Positions 3,041 through 10,977 of a DNA stretch of 10,977 bases are shown one piece after another. The DNA lies in NCBI GenBank assembly GCA_016783225.1, contig JADHWZ010000059.1, positions 1 through 10,977 of the forward strand, given 5' to 3'. This stretch comes from Dehalococcoidia bacterium (GTDB taxonomy: Bacteria; Chloroflexota; Dehalococcoidia; GIF9; UBA5620). The notes under the pieces were generated by a model. It saw only the letters and a program-made list of their open reading frames with translations, was not told the origin of the DNA and searched no databases. Made by a program: the position numbers and the translations under genes. Position 1 is the stretch's first letter. Every line of letters starts with the position of its first letter.

Positions 3041-3520
3041 ATGAAACAGCTTTTTGAAGCCCTGGAAAAAGACGCGCGGCTAACACCGGAGCAGATCTCT
3101 ACGATGACTGGTATCCCGGCAGCTGAGGTAGAGAAAACGATCAAGAAAGCCGAAAAGGACCGAGCTATCCTGAGATACAAGACTCTCATCGACTGGGCCA
3201 AACTGGGCGAAGAGCAGGTGTGGGCTCTGGTCGAAGTTAAGGTCGTCCCTCAGCGCGATGTAGGCTTTGACGCCATAGCTGAACGCATATATCGCTTCCC
3301 CCAAGCTCGCTCCGTTTATCTAGCCTCTGGCACCTATGATTTGGCCATAATTGTGGCAGGCAAGACCATGCAGGAGGTTGCTGTTTTCGTGTCGGAGAAG
3401 CTAGCCCCCCTGGAAACAGTGGAGGGCACTGTTACTCATTTCATCCTCAAGAAGTATAAGGAAGACGGCGAAATCCTTGAAGGCGGAGAGGGGATCAAGC
3501 GCCTGCCGGTAACTCCTTAG
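3041..3520 (+). CDS. AsnC/Lrp-family transcriptional regulator
   Basis: This is a 159-residue feast/famine regulator. Residues 1-55 form the winged-helix DNA-binding part (DARLTPEQISTMTGIPAAEV, then helix EKTIKKAEKDRAI leading to the RYKTLIDW wing). Residues 62-140 are the RAM ligand-binding and oligomerisation domain (ALVEVKV, ASGTYDLAIIVAG, a C-terminal THFILKKYKEDG strand). Such proteins normally bind amino acids and control amino acid metabolism genes. The ATG has an excellent ribosome binding site, GAGGAGGT, five bases upstream. The aminotransferase starts 39 bases downstream, making that gene and the regulator's own operon the obvious candidate targets; no operator was identified. Confidence 0.9.
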   Translation: MKQLFEALEKDARLTPEQISTMTGIPAAEVEKTIKKAEKDRAILRYKTLIDWAKLGEEQVWALVEVKVVPQRDVGFDAIAERIYRFPQARSVYLASGTYDLAIIVAGKTMQEVAVFVSEKLAPLETVEGTVTHFILKKYKEDGEILEGGEGIKRLPVTP

Positions 3521-3559
3521 CCGGAATCCCGTTCTACGCTTCAGAGGCAGGAGATTTTC

Positions 3560-4759
3560 GTGTCGAAAACCGGGTCGACTCGCATTCAGGTACCTCACAG
3601 CTACATATCTGAGAAGGTGCGCAATATCCCACCTTCGGGCATCAGGAGATTCTTTGATTTGCTCTCCTCGATGGAGGGAGTAATCTCGCTCGGGGTAGGC
3701 GAACCCGATTTCGTCACACCCTGGCACATCCGAGAAGCCGCCATCTACTCTTTCGAAAAAGGGTACACCATGTACACGTCCAATCAGGGGCTACCTCAGC
3801 TCCGGCAGGAACTAGCAACATACCTCGAGTCTTCTTACGGCCTAAGCTACGACACCGATAGCGAGCTTCTCATTACTGTCGGGGTCAGCGAGGGACTCGA
3901 CCTTGCCTTCAGAGCCATACTCAATCCAGGCGATGAGGTCATAATGCCTGACCCCTGTTATGTTGCCTATCCGGCCTCCGCTAGCTTGGCTGGAGGAGTA
4001 CCTGTCTTGGTGCCTACCACTGAGGAGCACGACTTCAAAGTAACGGCTGAGGACATCGAGCGGCGGATTACGCAGCGAACCAAGGCAATTCTGATTGGCT
4101 ACCCAGCCAACCCCACCGGCGCGGTCATGGCAAAGAAAGAGCTGACTCAAATTGCCAAACTGGCTCAGCAATACGACCTTTTGGTGATTTCCGACGAGGT
4201 CTACGACCAGCTTGTTTACGGTACGGAGCACACCTGCTTCGCCAGTCTGCCAGAGATGAGGGACCGAACAATCTTGCTAAATGGTTTCTCCAAAGCCTAC
4301 GCTATGACCGGATGGCGAATCGGCTATGCTGCCGGAACGCCCGAAATCATCCAGGCCATGACCAAGATTCACCAATACACCATGCTCTGCGCCCCAATAA
4401 TGGGGCAAATGGCGGCCATTGAAGCCTTGAAAAAAGGGAGCAGCGAAGTACAGGCAATGGTGAGGGAGTATGACCGGCGGCGCAGAGTCATGGTGAAGGG
4501 TTTAAGAGATATTGGCTTATCTTGCTTCGAGCCGAAGGGCGCTTTCTACGCCTTCCCATCGGTGAAAGCTACCGGCCTGGCTTCAGAGGAATTCGCCGAG
4601 CGACTGTTGACAGAGGAAAAGGTGGCTGTAGTTCCGGGCCCCGCCTTCGGCCAGCACGGCGAAGGCTATGTCCGTTGCTGCTATGCGACCTCCCTGCCCG
4701 AAATCGAAGAGGCATTGAAAAGGATGGGGAGGTTCATCAAGAGACACCGCAGAATGTGA
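3560..4759 (+). CDS. Class I/II PLP-dependent aminotransferase
   Basis: A 399-residue fold-type I aminotransferase, complete. PLP-site residues are visible: Asn184 in YPANPTG, Asp212 in SDEVY, the Schiff-base Lys245 in NGFSKAYAMTGWR, and the substrate-carboxylate arginine Arg372 in YVRCCYA. The N-terminal SLGVGEPDF and the MYTSNQGLPQLR segment are typical of the AspC/PatA-like Ibeta subgroup, which transfers amino groups between amino acids and 2-oxoacids. Substrate cannot be read from sequence. GTG start at 3560 with AGGCAGGAG about seven bases upstream. It probably shares a transcript with the Lrp-type gene. Its last 392 bases recur at 7987-8378, and the 3' end may have been replaced during that event. 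Confidence 0.93.
   Translation: MSKTGSTRIQVPHSYISEKVRNIPPSGIRRFFDLLSSMEGVISLGVGEPDFVTPWHIREAAIYSFEKGYTMYTSNQGLPQLRQELATYLESSYGLSYDTDSELLITVGVSEGLDLAFRAILNPGDEVIMPDPCYVAYPASASLAGGVPVLVPTTEEHDFKVTAEDIERRITQRTKAILIGYPANPTGAVMAKKELTQIAKLAQQYDLLVISDEVYDQLVYGTEHTCFASLPEMRDRTILLNGFSKAYAMTGWRIGYAAGTPEIIQAMTKIHQYTMLCAPIMGQMAAIEALKKGSSEVQAMVREYDRRRRVMVKGLRDIGLSCFEPKGAFYAFPSVKATGLASEEFAERLLTEEKVAVVPGPAFGQHGEGYVRCCYATSLPEIEEALKRMGRFIKRHRRM
4368..4759 (+). repeat. 392-bp direct repeat, copy A (3' third of intact aminotransferase)
   Basis: Pairs with 7987-8378 without any indel. By hand alignment I count 19 differing bases including the stop codon (TGA here, TAG there), about 95% identity. Homology stops abruptly just upstream of the shared TTCACCAATACACC and at the stop codon. 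The DNA between the copies is unrelated to either flank. Confidence 0.9.
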
Positions 4760-4771
4760 CGACGGCAACCC

Positions 4772-4807
4772 AGAAGAGGTCGTGAATTCAAATCCACGAC
4801 CTCTTCT
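4772..4807 (+). terminator. Terminator-like hairpin after the aminotransferase
   Basis: AGAAGAGGTCGTG (4772-4784) and CACGACCTCTTCT (4795-4807) form a perfect 13-bp stem with a ten-base loop. The following TATTCTTTAGTCTTGTT is T-rich but not a clean T-run. It begins 12 bases after the stop codon. The fragment copy at 8378 lacks it. Confidence 0.65.
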
Positions 4808-5032
4808 TATTCTTTAGTCTTGTTGACAACACAAAACAGGCTTTCGTTCAATCAGGTACGGCCACATAGTTCATTCAACTACCGACCATCTGCTACAGAG
4901 GCTACAATGTTGATAACACTGACTTAAGAAGTGGTATAACTATTGGGGGCAGGTAACGTTTGGCGGGTAATGCCGCGGTAATTATTATTGTATTAATGGT
5001 AATTTTTGTATTAGCTAACGGAGTAACGAACT
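4808..5032. other. Non-coding stretch upstream of the membrane protein gene
   Basis: No gene seen. It holds TTGACA at 4823-4828 with only a poor partner (TTCAAT, 18 bases on), the first 40-bp repeat, and an AT-rich run (4980-5013). A possible promoter spans the repeat: TTGATA (4910-4915) and TATAAC (4935-4940) with an over-long 19-base spacer but a TGG extended -10. GGAG at 5020-5023 is the probable ribosome binding site for the ATG at 5033. Confidence 0.4.
4915..4954 (+). repeat. 40-bp direct repeat, copy 1 (IS3-end-like)
   Basis: Matches 5838-5877 in 39 of 40 bases (G at 4921 versus A at 5844). The core includes ACTTAAGAAGTGGTATAAC and ends in GGGGGCAGGT. Read on the other strand it begins ACCTGCCCCC, like the terminal repeats of many IS3-family elements (5'-TGACCTGCCCCC). 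This copy diverges before the terminal CA, so the end is damaged. Confidence 0.7.
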
Positions 5033-5797
5033 ATGACTGCTTCTGAACGCATCCGGGAAACCTTGGAATACATGATAATCGTGGTAGTGACGTTCGCCAT
5101 CCTCCAGGCTGTGGTCGTCGTCATGCACGAGTTTACCCACAGCACCGTCGCCTGGATCCTCGGCTACATGCGAAGCCCTCTCGACATCGTCTGGGGCAAT
5201 CCCTTGACGCTGACGGGATGGGACGAAGGGGTTCATTATTCCGAACTATTTGCCTCCGGCCACCTCCGCACCGCGGCGATCATCGGGGTGAGCCCGCTGG
5301 TTGTCCATACGGCCATCGTGACCCTTGGCCTTGTTCTGATGCAGCGGAAAGGGATGCAAGGGAGAAAATGGCTTTTCCACACCCTCTTCTGGTTCGTCAT
5401 AGCCAACTTCATGGAACTTATCGCCTACATCACGATGCGGGCGTTCGCAGCCCACGGCGATGTCGGCATTTTCAACCGTGGACTGGAACTTTCTCCTTGG
5501 ATCATCTTCATCGCGGGGTCGCTGGCCATCGTGGCAGGGCTATACATTCTCTTCGGAGAGATCCTTCCCCGCATGTATGCCATCTTCGCGCGGGGAAACC
5601 ATCGGACTGAATGGGCGATCCTGTTGATGACCGCCTTTTTTCTTTTTGTGTGGGGAAGCGGAATGCGGGTGGTGCTTTACGTCTACCCCGATCCCCAGTG
5701 GATGTTCGGACTCCTCGGTTTTGCGGCGTTCGGCCTGGTCCTGGCCGTCTGCAATCCATCCAGGGCATGGGTCGTCAGACGCACAAAAATGGGATGA
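5033..5797 (+). CDS. Putative membrane-embedded zinc metalloprotease-like protein (HEFTH motif)
   Basis: A 254-residue polytopic protein with about six hydrophobic segments (roughly 14-31, 81-103, 114-135, 154-176, 193-215, 222-240). HEFTH at residues 32-36 lies at the end of the first segment, an HExxH zinc-binding pattern placed in the membrane as in M50/site-2-type proteases. A second conserved-looking polar block, NFMELIAYITMRAF plus HGD (141-143), falls in and after the third segment and could supply the third ligand. GNPLTLTGWDEG (55-66) sits in the loop after the motif. No substrate is suggested. GGAG lies nine bases before the ATG. Codon wobble positions are much richer in G and C than in the neighbouring lipoprotein gene, and 40-bp repeats lie on both sides, both consistent with transfer. 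Protease activity is inferred from the motif only. Confidence 0.75.
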   Translation: MTASERIRETLEYMIIVVVTFAILQAVVVVMHEFTHSTVAWILGYMRSPLDIVWGNPLTLTGWDEGVHYSELFASGHLRTAAIIGVSPLVVHTAIVTLGLVLMQRKGMQGRKWLFHTLFWFVIANFMELIAYITMRAFAAHGDVGIFNRGLELSPWIIFIAGSLAIVAGLYILFGEILPRMYAIFARGNHRTEWAILLMTAFFLFVWGSGMRVVLYVYPDPQWMFGLLGFAAFGLVLAVCNPSRAWVVRRTKMG

Positions 5798-5837
5798 TAC
5801 CCGCTGCGGAAACAATACTCCCAATTTATGCTATGCC

Positions 5838-5879
5838 AACACTAACTTAAGAAGTGGTATAACTATTGGGGGCAGGTCA
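5838..5879 (+). repeat. 40-bp direct repeat, copy 2, with intact IS3-like terminal CA
   Basis: Same orientation as 4915-4954 and 923 bases to its right; this copy continues to CA (5878-5879), so its end reads GGGGGCAGGTCA, as expected for an IS3-family tip (5'-TG...CA-3'). If so, the element body lay to the left of 5879. No transposase remains. The rest of the 5798-5915 gap shows no gene. Confidence 0.65.
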
Positions 5880-5915
5880 ATTTTAGTAAGGCGAAGGAGT
5901 TAGGATATGAACCGC

Positions 5916-7910
5916 CTATTTGATATAGATGAAAACAAATTCTCCGTCCTCTATGGATGTCAAGTAAACCCTATCTAGCCCTTGGTGGTCATTTTCACTG
6001 AAGGTCGCAGCAGCCCCTATGCCCGCAGAATAATCCCTAATGGACTCCAATGCCTCAATAAGACCTTCTCTGGTCAGGTTTCCACCGCACCTTCTCAGCC
6101 CCTCAACTAAAACTTTGGAATTAACAAAACCCTCCAACCCTTCAAAACTCGGCGATTCTCCAGGATAGTACTTTGTAAGATTTTCCACATATTTTTCCAC
6201 TGAATCAAGTAATTCACTGTAGTGTAGGGGTGGCACAACCTGAGTAACAAGTACATTATCAGTATGACCTTCAAGCTCCTTGACAAATTCTTCGGGCCCC
6301 ACAAACGAAACACTGTGAAAAATCATGTTAGGTTTTTGTGATTTGACGAGCCTGACAAATTTGGCGGTGGGGCTGTATGTTCCAACCATTACCACTATCT
6401 CCGCATCTGATTGAGTAATTGCCTGAACCGCCGCCTCAACGTTCATTGCTCCCCTAGTGTAAGAACCCAGGGCAACTGGTTCTAGTCCACGTTTTTCAAG
6501 AGCCATTTTTGTTCCTTGAAGACCATCCATGCCATAATCATCTGCCTGATAAAAAACAGCCACTTTCCTTAATCCAAGTTTATCTACAAAATATTTCACT
6601 GCATGTTCAATTTCCTGATAGTAAGAGGCTCTGATGTTAAAGATGTATTTCTTAACTGGTTCTCGGAGGACATTTGCACCTGTGAATAAGCCAATCAGAG
6701 GAACCTTTGCTTCCTCCACAATCGGAATGACTTGGACCGCCGTCGGCGTACCGACATAATTGAAAAGGGCAAAAACCTTATCTTCGTTGATTAGTTTTTG
6801 GGTATTTTCAACAGCCTTTGGAGGGTCGTACTGGTCATCATAGCTTATAACTCTTATTGCCCTGCCATAAATGCCGCCCTCTTCGTTAATTTGATTTATG
6901 AAAGTCATTGCTCCATACATGTAATTCGTGCCCAATTGACCGGCATGGCCGCTTAATGCCGAAGAGGAACCAATAAGAATTTCTGTATGAGTTACGCCCG
7001 GCGCGGCAATTGTTTGAGATGACGCTCCCAGGTACACCCCGGAACCCACCAGGACCCAGGTGTCCCCGAGCTTTGCCTTCATAACAAAGGAGGATTTCTT
7101 CGAGGACTCAGCCTCTCCCGGCTTGGGCCAACTGTAGTCTAACCAGCCTGAATCTTGCGTTTCGAGCAGGTCAAACATCGCGCGTACCAAATATTTGCCT
7201 TCTGTGTCCTTCAAGTCCATGACGTTTGTGCCTTCAAGATGACGAAAGACGGGATTCGCCAGATCAGTCCCATCCTGGTTAATGACAAACACATACACAT
7301 CCTGGAATATACACTCGCCAGCCGGGTCCTTGATTTCGTTGAACGCATCCGTCCCTTCGCTTTCGATAAGCCGCACAGCTTCTTTGACCCCGTCCTCGAT
7401 GAATGCCCTTTCTGTGCTCATGCCATAGCCACCGCTGCCTACGATATACTTCTTGCCAGAAGGAGAGGTTACCAGCTTGACGAATGTGGTTTTCCATGTC
7501 GGGAAGATTTCTCCCGGTTTGGGCCAGAGATAGTGGCTCCACCCTTCGGCCTCGCCTTCATAGCTGCTTACTTCTTCAACGAACCGTTTGACTATGGGTT
7601 TCCCATTGACATCCCTGAGCCCCAGCTGGTTCTTGCCTTCCAGTTCGGTATCAGGATGAACAAGCATATTCCCTTCGGTGTCCACAACAAAGATGTAGGT
7701 CTCTCCCTTCCACCACTTGCTCCCCTCGGTCTTGAATTCAGAGAAGGCCTTTTCTCCATTTCTCTCCACAAGAGCGCTAGCTTCCCTAACCAGGGTAACA
7801 AGATTCTTAGTGTCCTGGTATTGGTAATCTGATTTCTGCCCGGAGCATCCTCCAGTAAGCAGGGACATTAATACTATGAGTGTGACACTGATAGATATTG
7901 TCCTTTTCAT
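5916..7910 (-). CDS. Lipoprotein with two Cache domains fused to a LivJ/LivK-type periplasmic binding domain
   Basis: This is a 664-residue exported protein. I chose ATG at 7910 because AAGGAGGT (7921-7928) sits ten bases upstream; an in-frame GTG at 7922 overlaps that site. Residues 1-21 are a signal peptide ending LTGGC, a lipobox-like site with Cys22 as the likely lipidated residue (T at -3 is not ideal). Two sCache_2-like repeats follow: about 32-163 (YIFVVDTEGNMLVHP, GWSHYLWPKPGE, IVGSGGY) and about 172-295 (YVFVINQDGTDLANP, GWLDYSWPKPGE, LVGSGVY). Residues about 308-660 are a type I periplasmic binding fold of the branched-chain amino acid/urea class (ILIGSSSALSGHAGQLG, EEGGIYGRAIRVISYDD, VAVFYQADDYG). 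No permease, ATPase or membrane kinase is adjacent, so it is an orphan receptor in this window. Base composition shifts at the Cache/PBP boundary. Confidence 0.88.
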   Translation of the reverse strand: MKRTISISVTLIVLMSLLTGGCSGQKSDYQYQDTKNLVTLVREASALVERNGEKAFSEFKTEGSKWWKGETYIFVVDTEGNMLVHPDTELEGKNQLGLRDVNGKPIVKRFVEEVSSYEGEAEGWSHYLWPKPGEIFPTWKTTFVKLVTSPSGKKYIVGSGGYGMSTERAFIEDGVKEAVRLIESEGTDAFNEIKDPAGECIFQDVYVFVINQDGTDLANPVFRHLEGTNVMDLKDTEGKYLVRAMFDLLETQDSGWLDYSWPKPGEAESSKKSSFVMKAKLGDTWVLVGSGVYLGASSQTIAAPGVTHTEILIGSSSALSGHAGQLGTNYMYGAMTFINQINEEGGIYGRAIRVISYDDQYDPPKAVENTQKLINEDKVFALFNYVGTPTAVQVIPIVEEAKVPLIGLFTGANVLREPVKKYIFNIRASYYQEIEHAVKYFVDKLGLRKVAVFYQADDYGMDGLQGTKMALEKRGLEPVALGSYTRGAMNVEAAVQAITQSDAEIVVMVGTYSPTAKFVRLVKSQKPNMIFHSVSFVGPEEFVKELEGHTDNVLVTQVVPPLHYSELLDSVEKYVENLTKYYPGESPSFEGLEGFVNSKVLVEGLRRCGGNLTREGLIEALESIRDYSAGIGAAATFSENDHQGLDRVYLTSIEDGEFVFIYIK

Positions 7911-7942
7911 GTGTCTTGTCACCTCCTTGCTAGCGTGAGGAA

Positions 7943-7971
7943 ATTGTAGGCTATCGCCAGCTTTCTGTCAA
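7943..7971 (-). promoter_or_regulatory. Near-consensus sigma-70 promoter for the Cache-PBP lipoprotein
   Basis: On the minus strand TTGACA (7966-7971) and TACAAT (7943-7948) are separated by exactly 17 bases. Expected start near 7936 gives a leader of about 26 bases containing the ribosome binding site. The -35 box lies only 15 bases from the edge of the duplicated aminotransferase fragment, so the promoter belongs to the inserted DNA. Confidence 0.8.
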
Positions 7972-7986
7972 TTAACAATTTCCAGG

Positions 7987-8378
7987 TTCACCAATACACC
8001 ATGCTCTGCGCCCCAATAATGGGGCAAATGGCAGCCATTGAAGCCTTGAAAAAAGGCAGCAGCGAAGTGCAGGCAATGGTGAGAGAGTATGACCGGCGGC
8101 GCAGAGTCATGGTGAAGGGTTTGAGAGATATCGGCTTATCCTGCTTCGAGCCGAAGGGCGCTTTCTACGCCTTCCCATCGGTGAAAGCTACCGGCCTGAC
8201 GTCAGAAGAATTCGCCGAGCGACTGTTGACAGAGGAAAAGGTGGCTGTAGTTCCGGGCTCCGCCTTCGGCCAGCGCGGCGAAGGCTATGTCCGTTGCTGC
8301 TATGCGACCTCCCTACCCGAAATCGAAGAGGCCTTGAAAAGGATGGGGAGGTTCATCAAGAGACACCGCGGAACATAG
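7987..8378 (+). pseudogene. Headless aminotransferase fragment (392-bp repeat, copy B)
   Basis: This copy repeats the last 130 codons of the aminotransferase at 3560-4759 in an open frame, ending at TAG. It lacks the PLP lysine, the Asp and Asn cofactor contacts and any promoter or ribosome binding site; the first ATG (8001) is an internal methionine. It cannot be an aminotransferase. Compared with copy A, ten codons differ silently and five change the residue (A to T, P to S, H to R, R to G, M to T), with no indel or premature stop. That means most of the divergence arose while both versions were parts of working genes. It converges on the ACT-protein gene, whose stop is 24 bases away. Confidence 0.9.
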
Positions 8379-8401
8379 ATAAAGAGCCTTGAGCAAACCG
8401 C

Positions 8402-8833
8402 TTACAGGGCGTAGATTTCTTTGCCAAAGGTACGAACCCAGTTCTTTTTCAAAACCGCCACCGCCTCATCAGTTTTGTTCACGCCCACAATGACTATGGG
8501 CTGCCCGCTTTCACCCCTGCCCAAATAGGGATAGAAATAGGTGACATTAATATTGGCTCCCTTTAGAGGCTTAAGTACGGCCTGAAGCCCACCAGGATGG
8601 TCAGGGACTTCCACTGCAATTACATCGGTTTCTTTTACAGCATAGCCATGACTTTTTAGGACATTGGCGGTTTTTTCCGGGTCATCTGTTACAAATCTCA
8701 CAGTGCTAATATCAGATGTGTCAGCTACTGAAATAGCTCTGATGTTTATCCCTTCAGCCCCCAGACATTCGCTTACATCTAAGAACTTCCCGGGCACATT
8801 TTCCAGACTAACCGAAATCTGTTTTATACACAT
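8402..8833 (-). CDS. Tandem ACT-domain protein
   Basis: A 143-residue protein made of two ACT domains and nothing else: about 2-66 (ISVSLENVPGKFLDVSECLG, then GINIRAISVADTSD) and about 71-135 (AVEVPDHPGGLQAVLKPL, then GANINVTYFYPY). ACT pairs bind small ligands, usually amino acids, at their interface. Proteins of this plan often accompany genes for 2-oxoacid or aryl-acid oxidoreduction and branched-chain amino acid metabolism, but what this one controls is not shown by the sequence. The ATG has CAGGAGT six bases upstream. It is the last gene of the leftward oxidoreductase cluster, 107 bases beyond the gamma subunit; a separate promoter in that gap is possible but none is clear. Confidence 0.87.
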   Translation of the reverse strand: MCIKQISVSLENVPGKFLDVSECLGAEGINIRAISVADTSDISTVRFVTDDPEKTANVLKSHGYAVKETDVIAVEVPDHPGGLQAVLKPLKGANINVTYFYPYLGRGESGQPIVIVGVNKTDEAVAVLKKNWVRTFGKEIYAL

Positions 8834-8940
8834 AAGCTACTCCTGAATAAATATATATTCCAACGATTCTTCATTTACCGAAGCTCTCACTCAAAGTCTA
8901 TCATTCAAAGACTACAGTTAACCAAAACCCACAACCTGGA

Positions 8941-9471
8941 TTACAACAAATCGTATCCTGCCATCAATGCCTTCTCGTTAATAGCTATCAGTTTTTGTTT
9001 ACTTTTGAAAGCGTCTTTCAGCCCTTCAATCACACTGGAAAGTGAAACTATGTTACTTTTTTTGATGAAAGCGCCGAGCATAACAATGTTAGCCGATTTG
9101 GGGTTCCCCAGTTCTTCGGCAATTCTATTTGCTGGAACATTGATAATATCAACGTCCCCCCTGGAGATTTCAGCTTCCCCTAGAGAGGAATTGACGAAAA
9201 ACAGACCTCCTGATTGAATCTGATTTTGAAATCTAATAACAGAAGGTTGATTCATAGCCACAATAAATTCAGGGGAAGAAGCAACCGGAGATGCAATCTC
9301 TTCATCCGATATGGCTATCGTACAGTTAGCGGTACCGCCACGAACCTCAGCACCATAAGACGGCAGATAAGTCACTTGCTTTCCCTCTAACATCGCTGCC
9401 TGAGCTAAATTGAGCCCCATAGAGAGAACTCCCTGCCCGCCGAAGCCGGCAAAGAGTGTCTTAATCAGCAT
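8941..9471 (-). CDS. 2-oxoacid:ferredoxin oxidoreductase, gamma subunit
   Basis: The 176-residue gamma subunit of a CoA-acylating 2-oxoacid:ferredoxin oxidoreductase. The N-terminal GFGGQG (9-14) and SYGAEVRGGTANC (38-50) are family hallmarks, and the length is normal for a separate gamma chain. In the multisubunit enzyme gamma contributes to the CoA side of the reaction. Its ATG lies inside the end of the beta gene (11-base overlap) with TGGAG six bases upstream, so the two are translationally coupled. Subunit order alpha-beta-gamma is that of the KOR/VOR group. Confidence 0.9.
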   Translation of the reverse strand: MLIKTLFAGFGGQGVLSMGLNLAQAAMLEGKQVTYLPSYGAEVRGGTANCTIAISDEEIASPVASSPEFIVAMNQPSVIRFQNQIQSGGLFFVNSSLGEAEISRGDVDIINVPANRIAEELGNPKSANIVMLGAFIKKSNIVSLSSVIEGLKDAFKSKQKLIAINEKALMAGYDLL

Positions 9472-10216
9472 CTTTTTCTCCAGTCATATCCTTTATTACT
9501 CCTAAAGGAAACTCCTTCGTCATTTCATTATCAACCCACTGCCATGATTCTAATGGACTCATCTTCCAATTAGTGGGACAGGGGGAGAGTATCTCCACCA
9601 GTGAAAAACCAAGACCGTCGATTTGCACCTGAAACGCCTTGCGGATAGCCTTCTTTGTCTTCCTGATGTTGGCTGGAGAATTCACCGCGGTGCGCTCAAT
9701 ATATATTGCGCCTTTAACTAATGCTACCATCTCGCTCATCTTAATAGGATACCCTTCTATCTTTACATCTCTTCCGTAAGGGGTAGTTGTGGTCTTCTGT
9801 TTCGCAAGCGTAGTGGGAGCCATCTGTCCTCCGGTCATTCCGTAGACAGCATTGTTGATAAAAATGGCGGTTATATTTTCCCCCCTATTGGCAGCATGTA
9901 TAGTCTCGGCAGTGCCGATGGCAGCGAGATCGCCATCGCCCTGATAAGTAAAGGCTATTGCCTCGGGAAATGCCCTCTTTATACCGGTAGCCACAGCCGC
10001 TCCCCTGCCATGTGCCGATTCCGCCATATCTACATCGAGATAGTTGTAAGCAAAGACCGAACATCCCGGTGGTGGGATGCCGATAGCTTTATCCTGAAGG
10101 TCCATCTCATCAATCACCTCGGCAAGAAGCCTGTGGACAATGGAGTGGCCACATCCGGGACAATAATGAAAAACATTTCTTTTTAACGACTTTGGACGAG
10201 TGAATACTTTTTTCAT
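9461..10216 (-). CDS. 2-oxoacid:ferredoxin oxidoreductase, beta (thiamine diphosphate) subunit
   Basis: A 251-residue beta subunit that binds thiamine diphosphate and carries out oxidative decarboxylation of the 2-oxoacid. Visible features: CPGCGHS near the N-terminus (19-25), GIPPPGCS (46-53), SAHGRGAAVATGIK (67-80), and the ThDP/Mg motif GDGD (93-96) followed by FINNAVYGMTGGQ (119-131). Length and order of motifs match complete KorB/VorA-type proteins. Its ATG follows the alpha stop in TAGGAGATG, so the ribosome binding site is unusually close and reinitiation from alpha is likely. The substrate (2-oxoglutarate, 2-ketoisovalerate or other) cannot be fixed from beta alone. Confidence 0.92.
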   Translation of the reverse strand: MKKVFTRPKSLKRNVFHYCPGCGHSIVHRLLAEVIDEMDLQDKAIGIPPPGCSVFAYNYLDVDMAESAHGRGAAVATGIKRAFPEAIAFTYQGDGDLAAIGTAETIHAANRGENITAIFINNAVYGMTGGQMAPTTLAKQKTTTTPYGRDVKIEGYPIKMSEMVALVKGAIYIERTAVNSPANIRKTKKAIRKAFQVQIDGLGFSLVEILSPCPTNWKMSPLESWQWVDNEMTKEFPLGVIKDMTGEKDAD

Positions 10217-10219
10217 CTC

Positions 10220-10977
10220 CTATTTCAAACCCTTCTGATGATAAATACGTGAAATCACTCGAGCAACCTCGTTTGGCGTAGGGATTACGCCACCGGGCCT
10301 TCCGTAGAAGGAAACTTCCCCTTTACCCTCCAGCGCCAGCTGCACATCCTCCAGCATCTGACCCATATTCATCTCGAAAACGAGAAATTGTTTTATTCTC
10401 TTGGCTAGCTCCCGAACTTCGTCGGTAGGAAATGGCCACAGCGTAATTGGCCTCAACATCCCCACCTTTAACCCCTCTACCCGCGCATTGTTAACTGCCC
10501 CCTTAGCAATACGGGCTGCTATCCCAAAAGCAACAACTATCAGCTCTGCATCTTCAACCAGAAACGTTTCGTAAGTGGTCTCTTCCCTCTTGATCAACTG
10601 ATATCTTCTGAACAAACTCCAGTTAATCTCTTCCAGCTCAGTCGGGTTTGAGGTAAAGGTCTTGATAATCCTGCTCGGTCGTCCCTTCGCCCCTCTTAGA
10701 GCACGGCTTCTTATCGGCAATGTTTCAGGAGCTTCGTGTTTGAACTCTATCGGTTCCATCATCTGCCCCAGCATGCCATCCCCAAGAATAATCGTAGGAA
10801 TCAGATATTTGTCGGCGAGGTCAAATGCACGATGTGTGAAATCTGCCAGTTCTTGCACCGATGACGGTGCCAGAACTATAGTGCGATAATCTCCGTGTCC
10901 CCCACCACGGGTAGCTTGAAAATAGTCCGACTGAGAAGCAGATATACTTCCTAACCCCGGACCACCTCTGGACATAT
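10220..10977 (-). CDS. vorB: 2-oxoacid:ferredoxin oxidoreductase, alpha subunit (VorB-like), C-terminal part
   Basis: About 252 C-terminal residues of the alpha subunit; the reading frame runs off the right edge. Complete proteins are near 350-380 residues, so roughly the first third is missing. The apparent first methionine at 10975 is almost surely internal, because it precedes the conserved RGGPGLGSISASQSDYF segment, which lies well inside family members. TRGGGHGDYRTIVLAPSS and LGDGMLGQMMEPIEF are strongly like proteins annotated as 3-methyl-2-oxobutanoate dehydrogenase VorB, which suggests branched-chain 2-oxoacids, though KorA (2-oxoglutarate) is close in sequence. Reaction: 2-oxoacid + CoA + oxidised ferredoxin to acyl-CoA + CO2 + reduced ferredoxin. 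A small ferredoxin subunit may lie upstream, outside the window. Confidence 0.85.
   Translation of the reverse strand, partial: MSRGGPGLGSISASQSDYFQATRGGGHGDYRTIVLAPSSVQELADFTHRAFDLADKYLIPTIILGDGMLGQMMEPIEFKHEAPETLPIRSRALRGAKGRPSRIIKTFTSNPTELEEINWSLFRRYQLIKREETTYETFLVEDAELIVVAFGIAARIAKGAVNNARVEGLKVGMLRPITLWPFPTDEVRELAKRIKQFLVFEMNMGQMLEDVQLALEGKGEVSFYGRPGGVIPTPNEVARVISRIYHQKGLK

Follow-up and report, generated by a model that had tools for sequence, protein, structure and literature searches.

The window analysed here is a stretch of 10,977 nucleotides (contig JADHWZ010000059.1 of the Dehalococcoidia bacterium assembly GCA_016783225.1, forward strand). It contains an intact class I/II aminotransferase gene, preceded by the gene of an Lrp/AsnC-type regulator and followed further downstream by a second, headless copy of its own 3′ end. 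The two copies bracket about 3.2 kb with genes for an M50-like membrane protein (M) and a cache/periplasmic-binding lipoprotein; the second copy faces the convergent gene of an ACT-domain protein, beyond which lie genes for 2-oxoacid:ferredoxin oxidoreductase (kor) subunits (Table 1). The names korC and korA are presumed, the beta subunit alone having been named by NCBIfam. The arrangement was probably produced by homologous recombination at the end of the aminotransferase gene.

Table 1. Features of the aminotransferase–ACT region, with window coordinates
Feature	Position	Strand	Basis
Lrp/AsnC-type regulator, usual upstream neighbour of aminotransferase	3041..3520	+	Pfam AsnC_trans_reg 2.9e-13; gatA-asnC-aminotransferase order in relatives
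Intact aminotransferase, class I/II, 399 aa	3560..4759	+	Pfam Aminotran_1_2 2.8e-78; full-length homologues up to 99%
Copy 1 of duplicated 3′ segment, within intact gene	4365..4754	+	Repeat search, alignment
Terminator-like hairpin, copy-1 flank, also in G388	4772..4807	+	Fold z-score -5.3; flank 97.7% to G388
Unit common with G404 at another locus (insertion sequence (IS) remnant and M gene)	4837..5813	+	87% over 985 columns
Putative IS3-type transposase 3′-end remnant (29 codons and stop, 4838-4927) plus IS right end	4837..4961	+	Frame reads ...NQVRPHSSFNYRP...
M, 254-aa helical membrane protein, invariant HExxH, M50/site-2-protease-like	5033..5797	+	Alignment, predicted structure
Second copy of putative IS right end	5838..5884	+	91% to 4915-4961
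Lipoprotein with dCache and Peripla_BP_6 domains, start probably 7910	5916..7922	-	Pfam Peripla_BP_6 3.1e-60, dCache_2 1.7e-33
Promoter-like site of lipoprotein gene, TTGACA-17-TACAAT	7943..7971	-	11/12 matches
Copy 2, headless aminotransferase 3′ segment (open reading frame (ORF) 8001-8378)	7984..8373	+	ORF list, repeat search, alignment
Native-type gene end and junction to ACT	8374..8418	+	45/45 identical in G400
ACT-domain protein, convergent to tail	8402..8833	-	Pfam ACT_8 5.2e-17; 94% identical in G400
2-Oxoacid:ferredoxin oxidoreductase subunits korC, korB, part of korA	8941..10975	-	NCBIfam (beta subunit); ACT-kor order in relatives

Duplicated 3′ end of the aminotransferase gene

A first-pass annotation had described an indel-free repeat of 392 bp with about 95% identity, and pairwise alignment agrees: positions 4368–4759 and 7987–8378 align without a gap with 373 of 392 bases identical (95.2%). 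Thirteen of the 19 differences fall at third codon positions. Through base 4750 the count is 14 in 383 bases, 11 of them at third positions, with three amino-acid changes (Ala/Thr, Pro/Ser and His/Arg). The differences are spread throughout the repeat, the longest perfect run, one among several, being 57 bp, and the likeness breaks off sharply at about 4754/8373. A direct-repeat search of the window returned this pair as its first repeat (300 nt at 96%, spacing 3619); tandem repeats were not found. When up to 200,000 pairs of window stretches were drawn at random, with 56 positions sampled in each, the best identity was only 68%, so the repeat is not due to chance.

The ORF of copy 2 encodes 125 aa, matches the Pfam profile Aminotran_1_2 at positions 250–360 of 361 only and has neither a stop nor a frameshift, so that its earlier description as headless holds. 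The two copies are unrelated in their last three codons and 3′ flanks, where each resembles a different relative. Copy 1 ends with RHRRM-TGA, followed by the terminator-like hairpin; copy 2 ends with RHRGT-TAG, and the convergent ACT gene comes next, with its stop 23 bases away, the close adjacency that had been noted before. The homologue P0125 has the C-terminus HRRT, resembling this native end. The replacement 3′ end maintains the reading frame of the 399-aa protein, the last codons of which differ from those of copy 2. The gene is thus preserved despite the insertion, as had been proposed, being whole with a new 3′ end, while a headless allele stands beside ACT.

A tRNA gene was considered as an integration target. 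The tRNA scan detected none within the window, and the copy-1 hairpin, which is T-arm-like by eye, is better read as a terminator; it was not listed by the terminator scan, which was restricted to loops of 3–8. Rfam gave nothing up to E 1 across 3500–8900.

The copies can also be compared with full-length homologues. The protein P0123 is 99% identical along the full gene. At the internal differences it has the Thr, Ser and Arg of copy 2, yet its C-terminus is that of copy 1; residues of copy 2 therefore exist in a full-length gene. Arg at the His/Arg site occurs, among the 119 homologues listed, in P0123 and P0124 only, and these look like one gene with two starts. The PGxAFG motif is present in 116 of the same 119, with Ser in 79, Thr in 35, Cys in two and Pro in none. 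At the codon of base 4640 the intact aminotransferase has Pro in this motif and the headless copy the usual Ser. An unusual residue carried by the intact gene and not by the tail is a poor fit to a decaying tail. The copies differ as alleles do, unlike a gene and a decaying pseudogene.

Flanking sequences in related genomes

The closest relatives compared were metagenome-assembled genomes of Dehalococcoidia (Chloroflexota) or genomes from that class. The gat–asnC–aminotransferase and kor–ACT groups never occurred on one stretch among 20 stretches from relatives, and no aminotransferase was present at 30 ACT loci viewed with flanks of up to 1.5 kb. In the matches listed for 30 family genomes, aminotransferase and ACT stood on one contig in G400 alone, in the order intact aminotransferase, two small genes, headless 91-bp tail and ACT. 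The second small gene matches Pfam HicA_toxin (1.9e-15); the first matches DUF7387 (9.7e-7), and has a HicB-like look, the name HicB being presumed. Neither contains a recombinase domain. A search for tails found a headless copy of the aminotransferase gene in one of the 30 family genomes, again G400; a 110-aa open frame in G352 (40% identity) is a distant paralogue and was not counted.

A stretch of 87 bp is present in all four gene ends. It is identical at 85/87 positions between the window copies, at 79/87 between the G400 copies, the first 56 bases of whose repeat are identical, and at 66–71/87 between the genomes, the two tails sharing 71/87. Since the tails are closest to the gene of their own genome, the brackets were formed, or homogenised, separately. 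There would have been either two duplications or a single one, homogenised in each of the lineages.

The two sides of the insert also differ in their relationships. Identities (%) of G388 and G400 to the window are 80.6 and 79.9 in fusA, 81.2 and 81.1 in gatCA, 91.2 and 84.2 in asnC, 91.6 and 83.7 in the 5′ part of the aminotransferase gene and 92.0 and 78.0 in its 3′ part. The copy-1 flank is 97.7% identical in G388 and has no match in G400; in ACT and kor it is G388 that gives none, with 91.0 and 90.8 for G400. The 0.9-Mb genome of G388 gave no match to ACT. In the three relatives with identities for all seven shared blocks (G395, G180 and G265) the values are about alike on both sides; G404, G378 and G222 are without some blocks in the stretches compared. 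This dependence of identity on the side means that the two sides of the insert had different partners, and the window is a mosaic.

Inside the repeat, G388 matches copy 1 at 4/4 informative sites (4414–4465) and copy 2 at 8/9 informative sites from 4504 on, the exception being 4656. One switch point, between 4465 and 4504, fits 12 of 13 sites (permutation p 0.02, one outgroup). Such an allele switch would be a mark of a reciprocal crossover, a weak one when taken alone.

Genes between the two copies

A smaller direct repeat between the copies, overlooked in the first-pass annotation, joins 4915–4961 and 5838–5884 (91%); in our reading it is an IS3-type right end. This end is dispersed: at three or fewer mismatches it is found in three of the 30 family genomes (G180, G222 and G265; eight sites), and G395 has a copy with four mismatches. 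The transposase remnant at 4838–4927 matches rve_3 with an E-value of 0.0068, under the profile cut-off. Its assignment is based on G180 (L203), where a DDE-type frame, open over at least 290 aa and with the same ending, stands directly before the same repeat; the family name IS3 is our presumption.

The unit shared with G404 has the same left edge in both genomes, and the G404 locus is unrelated. The cargo is composite, M with its IS3-type remnant being a separate unit. As this unit also sits elsewhere in G404, the two cargo genes need not have arrived together, and the joint entry of lipoprotein and M that had been proposed is not supported.

Residues H32, E33 and H36 of M are invariant across 48 aligned sequences, and the HExxH motif falls inside helix 3–42 of the AlphaFold model (pLDDT 93). 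The profile match to Pfam M50 is not significant (E 0.048, 13.4 bits, cut-off 27.2), NCBIfam gave no significant match, and none of the 139 rows of a Foldseek search of the model against PDB reached E 0.001. The earlier designation as a membrane protease-like gene agrees with the invariant motif in a long helix; the M50 profile remains below its cut-off. M has 169 homologues at E ≤0.001; the best 120 of these are 54–96% identical, with one partial sequence at 99%, and those that are named belong to several phyla. M perhaps represents an undescribed, often transferred, site-2-protease-like family. By protein, M was found in none of seven genomes and in none of 393 Dehalococcoidia genomes drawn from the class; G404, the only family genome with M by DNA, is outside both sets. 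PADLOC reported nothing for M, the lipoprotein or the G400 gene pair.

The lipoprotein, whose status as such is judged from the appearance of its N-terminus, may be a secreted ligand sensor without a kinase of its own. Among the 120 matches listed, five homologues of 664 aa were found at 99% coverage; the lipoprotein was absent from all 30 family genomes. Its promoter-like site is the best of six found against 3.7 expected, and the −35 box begins 13 bases from the tail edge. Past the second IS end, at 5890–5980, inspection by eye shows a ribosome-binding-like site with a short open start, MNRLFDIDENKF..., which together look like the truncated beginning of a gene, overlapping the 3′ end of the lipoprotein gene.

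No integrase had been visible in the first-pass annotation, and this is upheld by Pfam searches, which detected no recombinase domain in M, in the lipoprotein or in 10 of the 11 overlapping ORFs that lie between the copies and are at least 60 aa long. A phage or plasmid origin of 4760–7980 was rejected, distant blastn having given no match in either collection. By tblastn, M matched two plasmid records at 25–27%; a scan of viral contigs contained no relatives of M, and its three aminotransferase loci (39–43%) are irrelevant.

Origin of the insertion

The window carries a duplication, two unlike 3′ flanks with different closest relatives and a composite cargo, and G400 carries a bracket of the same form. 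The reading that we favour, with fair though limited confidence, is insertion-type homologous recombination at the 3′ end of the aminotransferase gene, by which two alternative downstream neighbourhoods were brought together. The donor DNA would have contained the last third of an aminotransferase allele with its own downstream region, namely the terminator, the IS3 remnant and the M gene, the lipoprotein gene being optional. A single exchange would have taken place between it and a resident allele that had ACT–kor downstream. The outcome would be, in order, a complete gene that has gained a new 3′ end, the incoming DNA and the displaced resident 3′ end, which stays attached to ACT; the gene remains whole because the incoming DNA supplies a complete 3′ end. 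A single crossover inside the repeat, dependence on RecA, the order of events and the form of the donor, circular or linear, constitute the presumed part of this mechanism.

The first-pass annotation had proposed a Campbell-type integration of a circle. A gene segment is indeed repeated on both sides of the insert with one copy complete, and the independent bracket in G400, with its other cargo (the HicA-type pair) and its 91-bp tail, supports that interpretation; linear DNA could leave the same footprint as a circular donor. The history of the right flank (ACT–kor) differs from that of the left, so that either side may be the host and the other the insert.

Several observations weigh against insertion-type recombination. 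The switch-point test, with its p of 0.02, uses a single outgroup and has one of 13 sites contrary, base 4714 having been dropped as uninformative. Within the tail the window and G400 share 74/91 bases, being as different as elsewhere on the left side; the identity steps up at 8373/8374, and ACT–kor could instead have come from a G400-like donor. P0123 joins residues of copy 2 to the end of copy 1, for which a second exchange or another crossover point is needed. The lipoprotein–tail and M–lipoprotein joins are seen in the window assembly only. An empty site, with the aminotransferase gene directly followed by ACT, had been predicted and was not found in relatives; among 84 genomes from the order, G400 alone has the tail–ACT junction sequence, and there the site is occupied.

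Three other explanations were weighed. A decayed site-specific element of the e14 type, in which a tyrosine recombinase acted at the gene 3′ end, brought a replacement 3′ end and was later lost, is improbable. The icd/e14/icdC form matches closely as far as excerpts of PMC11148124 and PMC4444293 describe it, and the perfect 56-bp stretch of the G400 copies would suit such a site, but recombinase domains are missing from the G400 insert genes as from M, the lipoprotein and the 10 of 11 ORFs mentioned above, the window copies differ throughout with no perfect run beyond 57 bp, and the repeats are of unequal length (390 and 91 bp). An assembly chimera, in which contigs of two strains were joined at the aminotransferase tail, seems a little less probable again. 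A strain-mixing assembler could also produce the mosaic identity and the allele switch in the repeat; against this, the tail–ACT junction recurs in G400, a separate assembly, and the copies, being 5% apart, are not one collapsed repeat. In addition, the partial M protein P0024 (99%) and the aminotransferase P0123 (99%) each lie on a 2535-bp NCBI contig; the equal size suggests that this is one contig and that the left join is real too.

The least probable of the three is an old duplication of the whole gene, after which the second copy lost its head and the cargo arrived. A headless tail would be expected here as well, and G404 does have two aminotransferase genes, on different contigs. Copy 2 is, however, free of stops and frameshifts, with 11 of 14 differences at third positions, and relative to G388 the intact copy has more changes (eight) than the tail (five). 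Each tail is also more like its own gene (79/87 and 85/87) than the other tail (71/87), for which later homogenisation would be needed.

Comparison with known systems

Integration of e14 in Escherichia coli is performed by an integrase. In form, icd/e14/icdC is the closest known case: the element has on one side an intact gene whose 3′ end was replaced, and on the other the displaced 3′ end without its head. Excerpts of PMC11148124 and PMC4444293 give a displaced 3′ end of 165 bp with 12 nucleotide exchanges and two conservative amino-acid changes, the gene being kept, and intE in the gene list among about 16 kb of prophage genes. The few differences between the copies are alike (12/165 and two amino-acid changes there, 14/383 and three here). 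Unlike e14, with its intE and about 16 kb of prophage, the insert of the window is about 3.2 kb, with no recombinase domain found.

Campbell-type single-crossover (insertion-duplication) integration is similar in that a partial gene duplication flanks the insert, with one copy complete and one headless; it differs in that no replicon or vector backbone was recognised between the window repeats. As far as an excerpt of PMC3240628 covers it, recA-dependent single-crossover integration is known in E. coli, and homology-facilitated illegitimate recombination is described. Merodiploids made by transformation are described in an excerpt of PMC3784515, with pneumococcal duplications of about 100–900 kb, the first case bordered by IS861 repeats. 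Merodiploidy, single crossovers and homology-facilitated illegitimate recombination are thus known routes that need no integrase (excerpts of PMC3784515 and PMC3240628). As in the window, homologous exchange with incoming DNA can leave a resident and an incoming copy; unlike the large, IS861-bordered pneumococcal duplications, the window repeat is a 390-bp end of a protein gene. Among the papers listed in literature searches, none described this locus or a precedent in Dehalococcoidia, although this does not prove that there is none.

Environmental genomes often contain islands that lack an integrase, and it is usually difficult to tell how these entered. Where a gene end is duplicated and the copies differ at the level of alleles, entry by ordinary recombination has left a trace that can be read. 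Gene ends may serve as landing sites in this way, with no specialised insertion enzyme; as one gene has two brackets that hold different cargo, the idea can be tested by a systematic count of headless gene tails.

Neighbourhood of the aminotransferase gene in relatives

It is possible, but unlikely, that this Dehalococcoidia family has a recurrent landing site at the aminotransferase 3′ end, where small integrase-less units would be captured by gene-end homologous recombination, a new C-terminus being gained and the old one left behind in the bracketed cases. The units concerned are the HicA-type pair of G400, the IS3-remnant/M unit and sensor lipoprotein of the window, and a HicB-like gene of G395, where a tail was undetected. 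The same gene end as a family-wide breakpoint was rejected on 25 aminotransferase loci in 24 genomes: 15 loci share a convergent neighbour pair within 2.6 kb (one behind an extra gene), four have another neighbour and six are others.

In G388 the aminotransferase gene is followed by the flank of copy 1 up to base 4847 and then by unrelated genes and gene pieces, and these downstream ORFs appear to be a second sign of rearrangement at the gene end. One ORF past the aminotransferase (L195:1-2896) has a weak match to Fer4_16, below the cut-off; in another, the first third is a piece of a carboxylesterase and the remainder is not. In G395 (L197) a 68-aa gene, which we take to be HicB-like, and debris lie between the aminotransferase gene and what is presumably an acyl-CoA-dehydrogenase-like gene, with no tail copy found. 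The acyl-CoA-dehydrogenase-like gene stands directly after the aminotransferase in G180, G404 and G332.

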